Origin: an uncultured cyanobacterium
Lineage (GTDB): Bacteria > Cyanobacteriota > Cyanobacteriia > Cyanobacteriales > Nostocaceae
Length of the DNA: 64,000 nucleotides
NCBI GenBank assembly: GCA_903848645.1
Contig: CAINGU010000093.1
Location: 1 to 64,000, forward strand
Reading direction: 5' to 3'
Shown: piece by piece, positions 15,274 through 38,346 of the stretch
Layout of the letters: the number at the start of each line of letters is the position of its first letter
Numbering within the stretch: position 1 is the stretch's first letter
The notes under the pieces: generated by a model
Database searches by the model: none
The model's input: the letters and a program-made list of their open reading frames with translations, nothing else
Told to the model about the DNA's origin: nothing
Translations under genes and position numbers: made by a program

Positions 15274-16482
15274 ATGAATCTAATTAACGAGGGTGTGCAA
15301 AAAGGTCTAATTAAATTTGATGACGAGAAAAAATATATAACTTATCTTCATCAGAATAAACAAAGAAATTATACTAATCCTGAAGAAAGAGTACAAGCAG
15401 AAACTTTTTTAAAATTAATTTTGGTTTATGGTTATTCCCCTGAGAGAATATTACAATTTGTCTCCGTCACAATGGGATCAAGCACTAAAGAAGCTGATAT
15501 TATCGTTTATAATGATGATCAAAAAGAATCTCCCCATATATTAGTTGAATGTAAAAAACAAGAAGTTTCTGAATTAGAATTTAAACAAGCAATTGATCAG
15601 GCTTTTAGTTATGCTGTAGCCGAAGGTGCTAAATATGTTTGGGTAACTTCCGGGATTAAAGATGAATATTTTGAAGTCCCCATTGAAAGACCAAAAGCCC
15701 GTATTTCTATCCCTGATATTCCTCAATTTGGTGTTACTGAATTAGCTAAATATAAATATGCTAAATCTGGAGGAGAAGTTAATGGACAAAGGTTATTTGA
15801 ATTAGAAGTTGTTACAGAAGATGATTTAACCAGAAGATTTAAACAAGCACATAATGCTCTTTGGGGTGGTGGTGAATTAAATCCTTCAACTGCTTTTGAC
15901 GAATTAGATAAATTGATTTTTTGTAAGATTTGGGATGAAAAAAAGCCTCGCAAACAAGGTGAGCCTTATGATTTTCAAATATTTAAAGAAGACAAAGAAG
16001 AAAAAACTGATGAATATTTAATAGAACGAATTAAATCTCTTTATGATGAAGGTAGAAAAAAAGACCCAGAAGTTTTTAAAGATGATATTCGTTTAAGTCC
16101 TGAAAAATTGCGTACCGTTGTTGGTTATTTAGAAGGAATTAATTTAGGAGATACAGACTTAGACAGTAAAGGACGAGCATTTGAGACTTTTATGGGTTCG
16201 TTTTTTAGGGGAGATTTTGGACAATTCTTTACTCCTAGAAATATTGTTAAATTCATTGTTGATGTTTTACCCATAACCAATGATTCCTTAGTTTTAGATA
16301 CCTCCTGCGGTAGTGGTGGTTTCTTACTTCATGCTTTAGATAAAATCAGACAACAAGGTAAGGAATATTATCCAGAAAATTCTATTGAACATTATAAATA
16401 TTGGCATGATTTCGCAGAGAAAAATCTGTTTGGGATTGAAATTAATGAACGATTCAAAAGGAAAAACCATAAAATTATCTAA
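15274..16482 (+). pseudogene. Type I restriction-modification N-6 DNA methylase (HsdM with HSDR_N-like N-terminus), C-terminally truncated
   Basis: HILVECKKQEVS...GQFFTPRNIVKFIVDVLPI, motif I VLDTSCGSGGFLLHALDKI, ends at LFGIEINERFKRKNHKII*; no NPPF/NPPY motif IV. Confidence 0.85.
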
Positions 16483-17740
16483 AGTTTGTACAAAAATTAC
16501 AGATGGAACACATTTTACTCCAATTTATACTGACAAAGGTGTAATATTTTTAAGTGTGAAAAATGTAAGAAAAAATAGAGTATTTTTTGATGATACAAAA
16601 TTCATTTCTGAACAAGAACATAAAAAATTGGTCAAAAGATGTAATCCAATATCAGGGGACATTCTTTTAACAAAAGTCGGTAATACATATGGTTTAGCTG
16701 CTGTAATTCCAGATAACTCTCCAGAATTTAGTATATTTGTTAGTCTAGCTTTACTAAAAATTAATAAATCAAAAATTAATTCATATTTTGTTATGTATTT
16801 TCTAAATTCTCAATTTGGAAAAATACAAATGGATAGATTTATCAAAGGAATTGGACAACCTGATCTTCATCTTGAAGATATAGCTAATATTAAAATACCT
16901 TTATTATCTTTTGATGAGCAAGAAATTATTATTAATAAAATGGATAATGCTTATAATTCTAAAAAACAAAAAGAAGCAGAAGCACAAAGATTACTAGATA
17001 GTATTGATGATTATTTATTAAGAGAATTAGGGATTGAATTACCTCAACCATCACAGAATACTGTGAGTGATCGCATTTTTTACCGTAAATTAAGCGATAT
17101 TTCAGGAGGGAGATTTGATGCAGGAGTTCATCACAAAAAACTATCACTTCAAACTGAACTGCATCCTATGGTTCAATTTAAGAATCACGTATTAATTAAT
17201 CCATTAACAATATTTAGTCAATATAAATTAAGTAATGAAGTATCTTTTATTCCAATGGAAAATATTTCAGAAATTTTTGCAGAAGCTAATACATCTACAA
17301 TTAGAATTGTCAGCGAATCTAAAGGATATACTAAATTTTTAGAAGATGATCTTATTTGGGCAAAGATAACTCCTTGTATGGAAAATGGAAAATCTGCTGT
17401 TGTTACAGAACTAAAAAATAATATTGGCTTTGGATCAACAGAATATCATGTTTTCAGAGCGAAAATAGGTACTAATATTAGATATATTCATGCTTTATTA
17501 AGATTGAAAATTTTAAGAAATTATGCAACTTTATATTTTTCAGGGTCAGCAGGACACCAAAGAGTATCAGATCAATTTTTTAAAAGTTTATTAATTCCAT
17601 TACCCCCAATTGAAAAACAAAATGAAATAGCCGAACATATCACACAAATCAGAGAACAAGCCAAACAACTAAAAGAAGAAGCAAAAAGAGAATTAGAACA
17701 AGCAAAGATAGAAGTAGAAAAGATAATATTAGGAGAGTAG
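16445..17740 (+). CDS. hsdS: Type I restriction-modification specificity subunit HsdS
   Basis: MNDSKGKTIKLSKVCTKITDGTHFTP... two TRD halves with LPLLSFDEQEIIINKM and LPPIEKQNEIAEHI conserved regions; overlaps truncated HsdM. Start reassigned from 16385. Confidence 0.85.
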   Translation: MNDSKGKTIKLSKVCTKITDGTHFTPIYTDKGVIFLSVKNVRKNRVFFDDTKFISEQEHKKLVKRCNPISGDILLTKVGNTYGLAAVIPDNSPEFSIFVSLALLKINKSKINSYFVMYFLNSQFGKIQMDRFIKGIGQPDLHLEDIANIKIPLLSFDEQEIIINKMDNAYNSKKQKEAEAQRLLDSIDDYLLRELGIELPQPSQNTVSDRIFYRKLSDISGGRFDAGVHHKKLSLQTELHPMVQFKNHVLINPLTIFSQYKLSNEVSFIPMENISEIFAEANTSTIRIVSESKGYTKFLEDDLIWAKITPCMENGKSAVVTELKNNIGFGSTEYHVFRAKIGTNIRYIHALLRLKILRNYATLYFSGSAGHQRVSDQFFKSLLIPLPPIEKQNEIAEHITQIREQAKQLKEEAKRELEQAKIEVEKIILGE

Positions 17741-28080: not shown

Positions 28081-28347
28081 ATGAGTACCACGAGTTTTCG
28101 ACTTGATGATGACTTACAAGAGAAACTTGACAATACTGCTAACCGAATTAAGCGTTCTAAAGGTTGGATAATTAATGATGCTCTCCGTCGGTATATTGAG
28201 CAGGAAGAACTTAAACAAAGGATGTTTGAAGAGACTCAAGAAGCGATCGCTGATATTGAAGCCGGTCGTGTAGTATCAGGAGAAGAGGTGATGAAATGGC
28301 TGGAGACTTGGGGAACTGCTGCGGAAACTAAGGCTCCTTTGCTATGA
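28081..28347 (+). CDS. RHH (CopG/ParD-like) antitoxin
   Basis: TTSFRLDDDLQEKLDNTANRIKRSKGWIINDALRRYIEQ ribbon-helix-helix pattern; ATGA overlap with toxin gene. Confidence 0.88.
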   Translation: MSTTSFRLDDDLQEKLDNTANRIKRSKGWIINDALRRYIEQEELKQRMFEETQEAIADIEAGRVVSGEEVMKWLETWGTAAETKAPLL

Positions 28348-28622
28348 AATTGGAGTTTTCGGAAAGTGCAATTCAAGATTTGATTCGGCTACGGGAGTTT
28401 ATCGCGGTTCATAACCCAAAAGCATCAGAACGTATCTCTCTGCGGCTACGACAGGCTATGGGAAAACTTGTACTATATCCTGATATAGGGCGTTCTGTAC
28501 TGGAGTTTGAAAATGTCCGTGAACTTGTAGCTGGTGATTATGTTGTGCGATATTTACGCCTTGAGGATGTGATTTTTATATTAAGAATATGGCACGGGAA
28601 GGAATTTCGTGATTTTGGGTAA
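28344..28622 (+). CDS. RelE/ParE family toxin
   Basis: MKLEFSESAIQDLIRLREFI...ERISLRLRQAMGKLVLYPDIGR...YVVRYLRLEDVIFILRIWHGKEFRDFG. Confidence 0.88.
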   Translation: MKLEFSESAIQDLIRLREFIAVHNPKASERISLRLRQAMGKLVLYPDIGRSVLEFENVRELVAGDYVVRYLRLEDVIFILRIWHGKEFRDFG

Positions 28623-32579: not shown

Positions 32580-32828
32580 ATGCCCCCAGTTAACATTGAT
32601 GTAAATCAATCCAATATCAGTATTAAAGAGTTGTTATCTCTAGTGCTTGCAGGTAAAGAAATTGTTTTAACTGATGGTAGCATCCCCCAAGCACGTTTGA
32701 TATCAATGTCTTCCGAAAAAATTTCAAGTTCTCAATCTCGCACAGCCGGATTACATTCTGGAGCTATTTGGACAAGTGAAGATTTTGATGAGCCACTACC
32801 TGAAGATTTCTGGACAGGAAATCTATGA
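32580..32828 (+). CDS. Prevent-host-death/Phd-like antitoxin
   Basis: ISIKELLSLVLAGKEIVLTDGSIPQARLISMS...GLHSGAIWTSEDFDEPLPEDFWTGNL; overlaps PIN toxin. Confidence 0.85.
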   Translation: MPPVNIDVNQSNISIKELLSLVLAGKEIVLTDGSIPQARLISMSSEKISSSQSRTAGLHSGAIWTSEDFDEPLPEDFWTGNL

Positions 32829-33211
32829 ATTTACTTTTAGATACTCATACCTTCATTTGGTGGGATAGCGAACCTGGGAAACTTTCACAACAGGCTTTGA
32901 TACTGTGCGAAAATCCTACGAATACTCTCTTGCTAAGTATGGTGAGTATTTGGGAAATGCAAATTAAGATTCAATTAGGTAAATTAACTCTGAATCTGCC
33001 GTTATTAGAGATAATTCAACATCAGCAACAAAAAAATAATTTGAAAATTCTTCCGATTAGCATCACTCATATTTTAGCATTAGAGAATTTATCTAATCAT
33101 CACAAAGATCCTTTTGATCGCTTATTAATTGCTCAAAGTAATATTGAAGATGCTGTGTTAGTTAGTTGTGATCCTATGATTGCTAAATATCAAGTTAAGC
33201 TAGTTTGGTAA
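32825..33211 (+). CDS. PIN-domain (VapC-like) toxin
   Basis: MNLLLDTHTFIWW...LLSMVSIWEMQIKIQLGKL...HHKDPFDRLLIAQS. Confidence 0.9.
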   Translation: MNLLLDTHTFIWWDSEPGKLSQQALILCENPTNTLLLSMVSIWEMQIKIQLGKLTLNLPLLEIIQHQQQKNNLKILPISITHILALENLSNHHKDPFDRLLIAQSNIEDAVLVSCDPMIAKYQVKLVW

Positions 33212-35065: not shown

Positions 35066-35470
35066 CTATTCCTGTAACCAATTCTCTAAACTTAATCCTT
35101 CAACTGTCAATAAATCACTATCATTAGAAACTAGAATGAAATCTTTAACAATAGCAGTAGCAGCAATTAAAATATCTTCTGTTTGGATTGGTAATCTTCT
35201 TAATCTGAGATTTTCATGAATTTCTGCTGCTTTTTCCACAATTGCTAAATCATCCAAGAAAATGATTTGATAATCCTTACAGAAATTATCAAATCTTTCT
35301 AATTGTTTAATTGCGTTGACTGCAAATAAACCTCTTTTAACTTCAAAGTAAGTAACGCAACTGATACTTAATAATCCTTCTTGAGATTGAAATTCTTTTA
35401 ATCTTTGCTTAATTTTGGGATTATTTTTCAGTTCTAAGGAGACAATATTGGTATCTAATAAATATGTCAT
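35066..35470 (-). CDS. PIN-domain (VapC-like) toxin
   Basis: MTYLLDTNIVSLELKNNPKIKQRL...EDILIAATAIVKDFILVSNDSDLLTVEGLSLENW. Confidence 0.9.
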   Translation of the reverse strand: MTYLLDTNIVSLELKNNPKIKQRLKEFQSQEGLLSISCVTYFEVKRGLFAVNAIKQLERFDNFCKDYQIIFLDDLAIVEKAAEIHENLRLRRLPIQTEDILIAATAIVKDFILVSNDSDLLTVEGLSLENWLQE

Positions 35471-35475
35471 GTTTT

Positions 35476-35772
35476 TTATTTCCGTTTAATCATTTCATCA
35501 AAAATTGCTATTTGTTCGGGAGTTAATTCATTTAAAGTTCCTGCTACTGCTTCTGTCACCATAATCCCGCTACAACGTGTTTTTAAGTCCTGATCTTTCA
35601 TACTATTAAACTCATCAATAGGTAAGTTTTGCTGAAATAGATTACATAACTCTTGAATCATTTCCTCTGCGTTAAGTTCTTCCTTAAATAAAGGACGTTC
35701 TTCCATCAAAATATTCACAATTCTCTCGATTCTTGTTTTCATTGATTCTTGTTGAAGTTCTGTTGATAACAT
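35476..35772 (-). CDS. Putative antitoxin partner of adjacent PIN toxin
   Basis: ORF MLSTELQQESMKTRIERIVNILMEERPLF...; 5 bp from the PIN gene; likely start 35772 rather than 35829. Confidence 0.6.
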   Translation of the reverse strand: MLSTELQQESMKTRIERIVNILMEERPLFKEELNAEEMIQELCNLFQQNLPIDEFNSMKDQDLKTRCSGIMVTEAVAGTLNELTPEQIAIFDEMIKRK

Positions 35773-35978
35773 AATATTTCCTCCGTGAGAAATGTAAATG
35801 ATATTCATGAATGTTATACATTGTAGCATTTTTTAGTTTTGTGATGTCTGTTTATTACTCCAGTGTTAATTTATAAGTAATAAATTGTGTCAGATTTTGA
35901 AGTTAATTGTTTAAGTATTAAATTTTACATTTTTCAATTAATTAAAAAATTATTTGATATTCCTAGACACACTTAAAG

Positions 35979-38120
35979 ATGCGTGTTATATTTATAATCG
36001 TATCTATTTTAGATTGTGTTATCAAAGGATGCAAAGATATTATGGAGTGGTTATTTGGGGGCGTTGCTAAAAAATTTGACAGTGCAACCAAAGAGGTTGT
36101 CAAAGAAGGTAGCCATAATATAAACCGTCGGATGTTTTTAAATCTGATGGCTTCGGGTGCTATGGTTTATCTGGCTAAAGATTTGATATATCCAGAAATT
36201 GCTAGTGCTAATGGTGAGAGTATCAATGAAAAATATCACGTCTTTATACCTTATGAAATTGCTAAAAGAGGTGGTATTCAAGAAGTTGCTTTGAGGTCTG
36301 GAAATATTTGTCAGGTAAAAATCCCTGCTAGAATTATAGAAAATTATGAGATTTCTGTTTCTAAAGTTGGTATTCAAGGTAATGATGTTACTTTGATTTT
36401 GCATACATTATACGATTCGCAAATTAGAATTGCTGACAAAATTTATCAAGAAATTGATCAAACTGATTTTATTCGTAAAGATGCGACAAAAACAAAAGCT
36501 AAACAGACTTATGAATTACTTGAAGATGGTGAGTATATAGAAGATATTGCTTCTCTTGATTTATTGCAATATCTTATAGCTTCATCGAAATTAGATGAAC
36601 TAATTAAACTAAGATATGACATAGCTTATCAAAATTGCTTGTTAACTATTATGGAACAAGCAATAGAATCCGCTTTAGCTAAATCGCAGCTTTCTCAAGA
36701 GAAAAAGAAGCAAATTAGAAGTGCATATCAATACGTTCGTGCTTCAGAACCAGTTCCAGATTTTGGCTATCTCAAAGAATTAGATGCTATTATTGTTGGT
36801 TCAAATATGCCCGTAGGAATCAAGCGTGCTTATTCACTCGCTAGTGCTAAATCTAGAGCTTTAACTGTAGACAGAATCATTGTTAATTTAATTACTGATC
36901 CTCAACAACTAAAACCTGAAAATCAAGAAACATACCTAAAAATATATGAAGAAATTAGAGATGGTAAGGAAGTATCTGATCTAGAAACTTTGCCATTACT
37001 AAATTCATTCATTCTCAACTCTAAAATTCTAAATAGTTGCAAGTTAGTTTATTTAATGGCGCAAAATCGCTTTTTTGAAAATACGGAAATTATTGATATC
37101 ATAGCGAAGAATCAGTTAGTTGACGAGACTTCAGAATTAAAGAAAGAAGATTGGGGAAAAATTATCAAGGTAGCTCGTCAAGTAGGCAATCAAGGAGGAG
37201 CTATTCTGCCTACAATAACAGGTACTCTCACTACTTTGGGAGCAGAAACTGCAACAGGTGTAGCTATTAGTAGCTTAAGTGGAGGGGCGGCTACTACAGC
37301 AAGTTTAGCCTATTTAGGGGGTGGTTCTGTAGCTGCTGGTGGATTAGGTATGCTAGGTGGTTTAGCAGTAGTCACAGGTGGAGCAGCTTTAATTGGAGCA
37401 GCAGGACTAGTATCTGTTGCGCTTGTTTCTGAAATGGACGGAGAAGACCTCCAAAATTTAGGAATTGCAGCAGTAACAGGAACTTTAGCGGGTGCTGGTG
37501 CTGTTTTCATTGCTTGGACTGGTGCTTCTGCTTTGGGTGTAGCAGGTACATTATCAGGAGCAGCCGCTATTACCTCTATTATCTCAACATTAGGTGGAAT
37601 GAGCGTTATTACTGGAGGAGCATCTTTAATAGCATTTGGTGCTGGTTTTGTTGTTTGGTCTTTTCTGAAAGGAAAAAAAGGTCGAGACTCAAATATACTA
37701 CATCAGTTTGAGTCTCGATTGTACGCTTTAACGGAAATGCCAACATCTCCTCAGTTAGTAAGATTTATTGATTTTCTCAATGACAAGTTGCCTGAAAAAT
37801 TTAATACTGAAGAAGTATTTATTGCACCGAATATTCCTTTAGATAAATTTACAAATGCTTTATCTGATTATGCAATTGTTAATGCAGGTGAGCAGATATT
37901 AGCTTTAATAGATACGAGTTCTTGGAATGATGCAAAAGAAGGCATTTTATTAACTACTAATAGAGTTATTTGGAAACGTGGATGGTCAAGTCCTAATTTT
38001 ATTAATTATGTTGATGTAACCGATGAAAAGAAGGAAATTCCAGAACTTTCTCATATTCGGGATAGTGTTAAATTTTATCTACTATTACAAGAAATAGGAG
38101 AAAAATACAGTTCTATTTAA
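35979..38120 (+). CDS. Hypothetical membrane protein: Tat-like leader, DnaJ-CTD-like segment, Gly-rich hydrophobic hairpins, PH/GRAM-like C-terminus
   Basis: 713-aa ORF; NINRRMFLNLMASGAMVYLA...EIASANG; YHVFIPYEIAKRGGIQEVALRSGNICQVKIPARIIENYEISVSKVGIQGNDVTLIL; SLAYLGGGSVAAGGLGMLGGLAVVTGGAALIGAAGLVS; GEQILALIDTSSWNDAKEGILLTTNRVIWKR. Confidence 0.75.
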   Translation: MRVIFIIVSILDCVIKGCKDIMEWLFGGVAKKFDSATKEVVKEGSHNINRRMFLNLMASGAMVYLAKDLIYPEIASANGESINEKYHVFIPYEIAKRGGIQEVALRSGNICQVKIPARIIENYEISVSKVGIQGNDVTLILHTLYDSQIRIADKIYQEIDQTDFIRKDATKTKAKQTYELLEDGEYIEDIASLDLLQYLIASSKLDELIKLRYDIAYQNCLLTIMEQAIESALAKSQLSQEKKKQIRSAYQYVRASEPVPDFGYLKELDAIIVGSNMPVGIKRAYSLASAKSRALTVDRIIVNLITDPQQLKPENQETYLKIYEEIRDGKEVSDLETLPLLNSFILNSKILNSCKLVYLMAQNRFFENTEIIDIIAKNQLVDETSELKKEDWGKIIKVARQVGNQGGAILPTITGTLTTLGAETATGVAISSLSGGAATTASLAYLGGGSVAAGGLGMLGGLAVVTGGAALIGAAGLVSVALVSEMDGEDLQNLGIAAVTGTLAGAGAVFIAWTGASALGVAGTLSGAAAITSIISTLGGMSVITGGASLIAFGAGFVVWSFLKGKKGRDSNILHQFESRLYALTEMPTSPQLVRFIDFLNDKLPEKFNTEEVFIAPNIPLDKFTNALSDYAIVNAGEQILALIDTSSWNDAKEGILLTTNRVIWKRGWSSPNFINYVDVTDEKKEIPELSHIRDSVKFYLLLQEIGEKYSSI

Positions 38121-38268: not shown

Positions 38269-38346
38269 ATGAAAAAAATAGAAATCGAACTTGATCAAGA
38301 AACCTATGACAAAATAGAAATAATAGAGATTCATAAACAATGGTAA
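38269..38346 (+). CDS. Short ORF, possible remnant of small regulatory/antitoxin protein
   Basis: ATG to TAA, MKKIEIELDQETYDKIEIIEIHKQW*. Confidence 0.3.
   Translation: MKKIEIELDQETYDKIEIIEIHKQW

Follow-up and report, generated by a model that had tools for sequence, protein, structure and literature searches.

A cyanobacterial protein family joining a putative twin-arginine leader and an Hsp40-type domain to modules of anti-phage proteins

Analysis of a 64,000-nt stretch of DNA from an uncultured cyanobacterium of the Nostocaceae (hereafter the window) led to a gene whose product, judged by its sequence, belongs to an unnamed family in which the combination of domains is new, and to no known system. 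The protein carries a Tat-type leader, a DnaJ/Hsp40 CTD-I-like domain, three tandem helical repeats, a Gly/Ala-rich hydrophobic hairpin region and a C-terminal domain with homology to the BnzA N-terminus (Table 1), and this module order was absent from all libraries searched. From these features we infer, tentatively and with a probability of roughly 0.4, a single-gene, envelope-targeted and membrane-embedded conflict or stress protein with an Hsp40-type sensor. Pfam and NCBIfam contained no whole-protein family covering it, in agreement with the sequence-only reading, which had left the protein unassigned and had described a single-gene layout that is borne out here. A literature search retrieved nothing on the family. 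The genome of the window has one full copy of the gene.

Table 1. Features of the gene and its surroundings (positions in the window)
Feature	Position	Strand	Basis
Protein-coding ORF (713 codons as first listed)	35979-38120	+	ORF list of the window
Promoter-like element TAGACA-17-TATATT, extended TG	35964..35992	+	consensus scan only
Shine-Dalgarno-like AAAGGA ahead of ATG 36042	36024..36029	+	sequence
N-terminal helix MEWLFGGVAKKFDSATKEVVKEG	36042..36116	+	blastp and blastn matches to L036-L042, L049, L050
Tat-type leader NINRRMFLNLMASGAMVYLAKDLIYPEIASA	36117..36209	+	RR/AxA conservation; predicted cleavage after A77
DnaJ/Hsp40 CTD-I-like domain, residues 84-146	36228..36416	+	hhalign to cyanobacterial type-B DnaJ
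Three tandem ~54-aa helical repeats, residues 166-222, 238-302, 312-365	36474..37073	+	repeat-to-repeat hhalign
Gly/Ala-rich hydrophobic hairpin region, residues 405-565	37191..37673	+	alignments, hydropathy, PDC-M09A match
Near-invariant block LGGGSVAAGGLGMLGGL	37314-37364	+	family alignments
C-terminal domain homologous to BnzA N-terminal domain, residues 598-684	37770..38030	+	PADLOC BnzA match
Strong RNA hairpin 3' of the stop codon	38143-38196 (about)	+	folding vs shuffles
VapBC-like pair: PIN toxin 35066-35470, antitoxin-like 35476-35829	35066..35829	-	sequence motif; divergent from the gene
Further TA-like pairs	28081-28622 and 32580-33211		identified by eye

All segments quoted in the sequence-only reading were found in this ORF (the RRMFL leader, YHVFIPYEIAKRGG...HTLYD, the Gly/Ala-rich stretch and the GEQILALIDTSSWNDAKEGILLTTNRVIWKR tail), and they exceed chance as judged from RR conservation, the CTD controls and the conservation of the hairpin region. 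The start was revised. Translation probably begins at the ATG at 36042 rather than at 35979, giving a product of 692 aa, because the 5' DNA matches coiled-coil genes, an AAAGG(A/G) is kept, indels upstream are irregular and the ATG listed first falls within a promoter-like element. Specifically, blastn matched positions 35949-36115 to the 5' ends of an unrelated family of ~300-aa coiled-coil genes (roughly 68-76% DNA identity), and alignment showed that AAAGG(A/G) ahead of ATG 36042 is kept both in family genes and in these donor genes, while the upstream indels vary irregularly in length. Likeness to the Tat-leader homologs L009 and L010 starts at the RR codons (~36123); both begin at the Tat leader and lack the helix MEWLFGGVAKKFDSATKEVVKEG. 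The promoter, the ribosome-binding site and ~25 codons in front of the leader appear, on sequence comparison, to have been captured from an unrelated coiled-coil gene, and the 5' fusion is common to the window gene, L001 and L002. Most of the donor loci (L036-L042, L049, L050) have a second conserved gene 3' of the donor.

At the other end, the strong hairpin said to bound the gene was confirmed: the 83-nt stretch folds at -28.1 kcal/mol (z = -4.77) and none of 200 shuffles did as well; the terminator scan did not score it as a canonical terminator. The gene had also been placed next to several TA modules. Several TA-like pairs do lie in the window, but the family at large does not keep them as partners; counterparts of the VapBC-like pair are present in L001 and L003. 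At ~38270-38345 there is a short antitoxin-like remnant (MKKIEIELDQETYDKIE...) with an early end, which has intact relatives in L064 and L067. Two ORFs resembling type I restriction components occupy 15274-17740, ~18 kb from the gene, with a specificity-subunit-like ORF at 16385-17740.

The internal RR-x-F-hydrophobic leader described earlier has Tat-type features. An RR-x-(F/L/A..) leader is present in 34 full-length members, a count that is not unbiased alone, the pattern search having demanded RR; 31 of these leaders also show an AxA no more than ~45 residues further on. By inspection, no such leader is seen in the members that lack RR, and the leaders found keep RR and never another basic pair. 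The partial member L107 has one more RR leader, with a lipobox-like TSC in place of AxA. In the maximum-likelihood tree the 35 RR-leader rows form one clade (support 99/96), with the rows outside it lacking the leader. These features suggest that the window protein may be exported by the Tat route. Alternatively, the leader could do no more than target or anchor the N-terminus to the membrane as a helix, leaving the protein to work at the cytoplasmic face like its leaderless relatives. Several relatives lack any leader, others have amphipathic N-terminal helices instead, and the window copy has its extra helix ahead of RR, all of which would fit an anchor; against the invariable RR, the frequent AxA and the TSC of L107, we consider it improbable.

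The segment following the leader, compared previously with the DnaJ/Hsp40 C-terminal substrate-binding domain, held up as a case of sequence homology. Hhalign of residues 80-152 from 55 members against five cyanobacterial type-B DnaJ rows gave a probability of 95.1% (E = 3.1e-8) on the CTD-I strands, and the controls (the other three modules and a reversed target) reached at most 1.3%; one alignment row (L203) was the wrong ORF, which should weaken and not create the match. The best NCBIfam match of the window protein was also DnaJ, sub-threshold, over residues 90-160. Pfam and NCBIfam scans found no J domain (HPD motif), and there is therefore no evident Hsp70 coupling. The CTD may bind peptides. 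A chaperone CTD would also suit a housekeeping-type envelope or thylakoid protein-quality factor, namely a Tat-exported, membrane-anchored holdase whose Hsp40 CTD would act on misfolded lumenal or periplasmic proteins, with no phage role and with the Bunzi/M09 modules merely shared. This is a possible explanation and a close competitor of the conflict or stress protein: in its favour, an Hsp70-TPR protein carries the C-terminal domain too and the G337 homolog has a DnaK-like gene nearby, whereas the missing J domain speaks against it.

The helical repeats are mutually homologous (hhalign E = 4e-15, 7e-11 and 4e-15, with unrelated control segments at 0.02 or worse) and the module is confined to this protein family among the 194 genomes sampled. 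A PDB sequence search with it gave no match, and at the sequence level it is a new tandem helical repeat. The best Pfam match, HTH_40 (E = 0.005), fell on the first helical repeat below the cut-off and was rejected. Further on, the Gly/Ala-rich hydrophobic hairpins of the sequence-only reading were upheld by the alignments, in which they are the most conserved part of the protein, and by three hydropathy peaks (residues 454-486, 494-514 and 541-561); they may insert into a membrane. The hairpin block matches the PADLOC defence candidate PDC-M09A (E = 2.1e-8), and the hairpin-region profile scored 33.4 bits against an M09A-like protein of the same genome, with 1000 shuffles giving at most 7.5. 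The match comprises the hairpin block only, and no full-length PDC-M09A family match was found. In the genome of the window, G000:C83 ~125001-125228 (L005) encodes an M09A-like protein with a BnzB-like gene immediately behind it (PADLOC BnzB, E = 1.2e-61); the two may form a Bunzi/M09 two-gene system.

Concerning the C-terminus, residues 598-682 matched PADLOC BnzA with E = 1.2e-13, covering positions 6-89 of the 544 of the profile, and BnzA-N matches in the family range from E = 1e-9 to 1e-16 (1.2e-16 in one other member). The match did not extend over the whole of BnzA with its central TerB part, nor was a BnzB-like neighbour seen by eye around the window gene or in the surveyed homolog contexts. 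A PH/GRAM-like fold had been proposed here, and it is not established: there was no Pfam PH match among 11 members and no PDB sequence match, and the sequence points to BnzA. The proposed structural comparison was made with AlphaFold models built from an input of three sequences only, which reached a pLDDT of 43 for the 666-aa form and 45 for the C-terminal 134 aa; Foldseek with the low-confidence model found no match at E <= 0.001. We make no fold claim because the model is poor and Foldseek gave no match; PDB sequence searches also found nothing. The same C-terminal domain ends the Hsp70-TPR protein L232:22-1929 (hhalign 95.9%), which ties the domain to both Hsp70 and Hsp40 parts. The N-terminus of the leaderless L106 and the BnzA-like protein L183:1051-2388 share an amphipathic Ala/Lys-rich repeat of low complexity (E = 4e-10).

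Family searches, in overlapping samples, took in as many as 1887 genome slots from this phylum and recovered ~55 full or nearly full members, which occur sporadically in Nostocaceae, in further families of its order and in three more families within the class. The distribution is patchy, mostly single-gene and spread over several cyanobacterial orders, with 13 of 386 phylum-sample genomes matching at E <= 1e-20, and no relatives were found in plasmid, phage and viral collections. Degenerate copies are common, with stubs or chimeras at L003, L030/L050, L043, L060, L062, L067, L068, L174, L175 and L179. Two family fragments (L062:5915-6988 and L043:2048-2812) are joined to a histidine-kinase end, apparently via recombination with a neighbouring kinase gene. 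Stubs and chimeras in so many genomes might be read as the traces of an accessory gene that is selfish or in decay, lacks a stable function and is kept up by transfer. We hold this to be very unlikely: the window copy as a whole evolves under purifying selection, with dN/dS against its two nearest homologs of ~0.25 (0.057/0.226) and ~0.35 (0.170/0.480) and the clearest signal in the repeat and hairpin modules, and near-invariant blocks are kept across orders. These ratios also agree with a conflict or stress protein. The very patchy distribution and the many decayed remnants weigh against a protein-quality factor, while a chromosomal position that is mostly stable and inheritance that is vertical within genera argue for one. 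Synonymous divergence between the window gene and L002 rises from 0.10-0.18 in the leader and CTD to 0.78 in the C-terminal domain, a contrast suggestive of intragenic recombination.

Genomic neighbourhoods gave a divided picture. Three members (L104, L105 and L107) form a 100/100 clade and all lie in defence or mobile loci. L105 (G334) lies in DISARM, on one strand, in the order DrmD, DrmMI, RNase III-like gene, family gene, UvrD-like gene, DrmA, DrmB and DrmC; L107 (G495) follows DrmMI and an RNase III-like gene in a DISARM-type locus. L104 (G251) is cargo of a type V-K CAST: after tnsB and tnsC, the gene comes directly behind tniQ and is itself followed by hsdM and other type I restriction genes; Cas12k lies ~10 kb beyond. 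Tn7-like transposons are described as carriers of defence cargo (PMC8649781). Elsewhere, single members adjoin TIR-WD40 (L172) or LeoA/LeoBC dynamins (L056). The window copy itself is not inside drm operons, unlike the homologs L105 and L107. When roughly 30 distinct contexts were tallied by eye, about 25 proved to consist of ordinary chromosomal or housekeeping genes, and a search of the homolog contexts for a constant operon partner found none family-wide, only subgroups having one. Of the defence-island link looked for from the outset, the DISARM/CAST clade and the shared modules stand, but most homologs lie outside defence islands; a general enrichment was dropped because only one clade and a few cases show it. 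We treat the defence label as a supported lead and not as a result.

The evidence for a conflict or stress protein thus comprises the RR leader kept in one clade, the controlled CTD-I homology, two modules common to anti-phage proteins (BnzA-N and PDC-M09A) and the clade lying wholly in DISARM/CAST loci, which also counts against a protein-quality factor. Opposed to it are the prevailing housekeeping contexts, a synteny that is stable within genera, unlike that of typical defence genes, the rarity of Tat export among phage-defence effectors, the lack of relatives in phage, plasmid and viral collections and the lack of a usable structure model. A stronger version, which we find doubtful, would make the family a new exported anti-phage class: a Tat-delivered, membrane-embedded effector with an Hsp40 substrate-binding trigger that senses phage-perturbed envelope proteins outside the cytoplasm, accessory in DISARM and V-K CAST.

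For the envelope-targeted conflict or stress protein that we prefer, we infer the ligand, trigger and outcome, and any role in phage conflict or envelope stress, as follows. The twin-arginine leader would bring the folded protein to the plasma or thylakoid membrane, or anchor it there, and the Gly/Ala-rich hairpins would sit in the bilayer. The Hsp40 CTD-I domain could then hold exposed hydrophobic or misfolded segments, which may derive from phage-damaged or stress-damaged envelope proteins, with the triple helical repeat and the BnzA-type C-terminal domain serving as scaffold and regulator. This conserved family joins chaperone parts (the Hsp40 CTD and, in a relative with the same C-terminal domain, Hsp70) to anti-phage modules whose mechanisms we did not find described.

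Among known systems, Bunzi BnzA (PADLOC PDLC03833) shares with the window protein the C-terminal domain, homologous to BnzA residues ~6-89, and one cyanobacterial BnzA-like protein likewise has a Gly/Ala-rich hairpin region. Unlike BnzA, the window protein has no TerB region, its domain order is reversed, no BnzB lies alongside, its hairpins show no alignment to those of the BnzA-like cyanobacterial protein that was compared, and it adds the Tat leader, the DnaJ CTD and the triple repeats. With PDC-M09A it has in common the Gly/Ala-rich block LGGGxxAAGGLGMxGG (E = 2e-8); the same-genome M09A-like protein, in contrast, is ~270-300 aa long, has a coiled coil and is paired with a BnzB-like gene, whereas the window protein has four further modules. 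Type B DnaJ/Hsp40 proteins resemble it, by sequence homology, in one CTD-I-like beta domain, but the window protein is without a J domain, zinc-binding domain, second CTD or dimerisation region. Finally, like Tat-exported proteins it bears an RRxF(L) motif, a short hydrophobic stretch and an AxA site, and it differs from them in the multiple hydrophobic hairpins of its mature part and in the extra N-terminal helix that the window copy carries ahead of RR.
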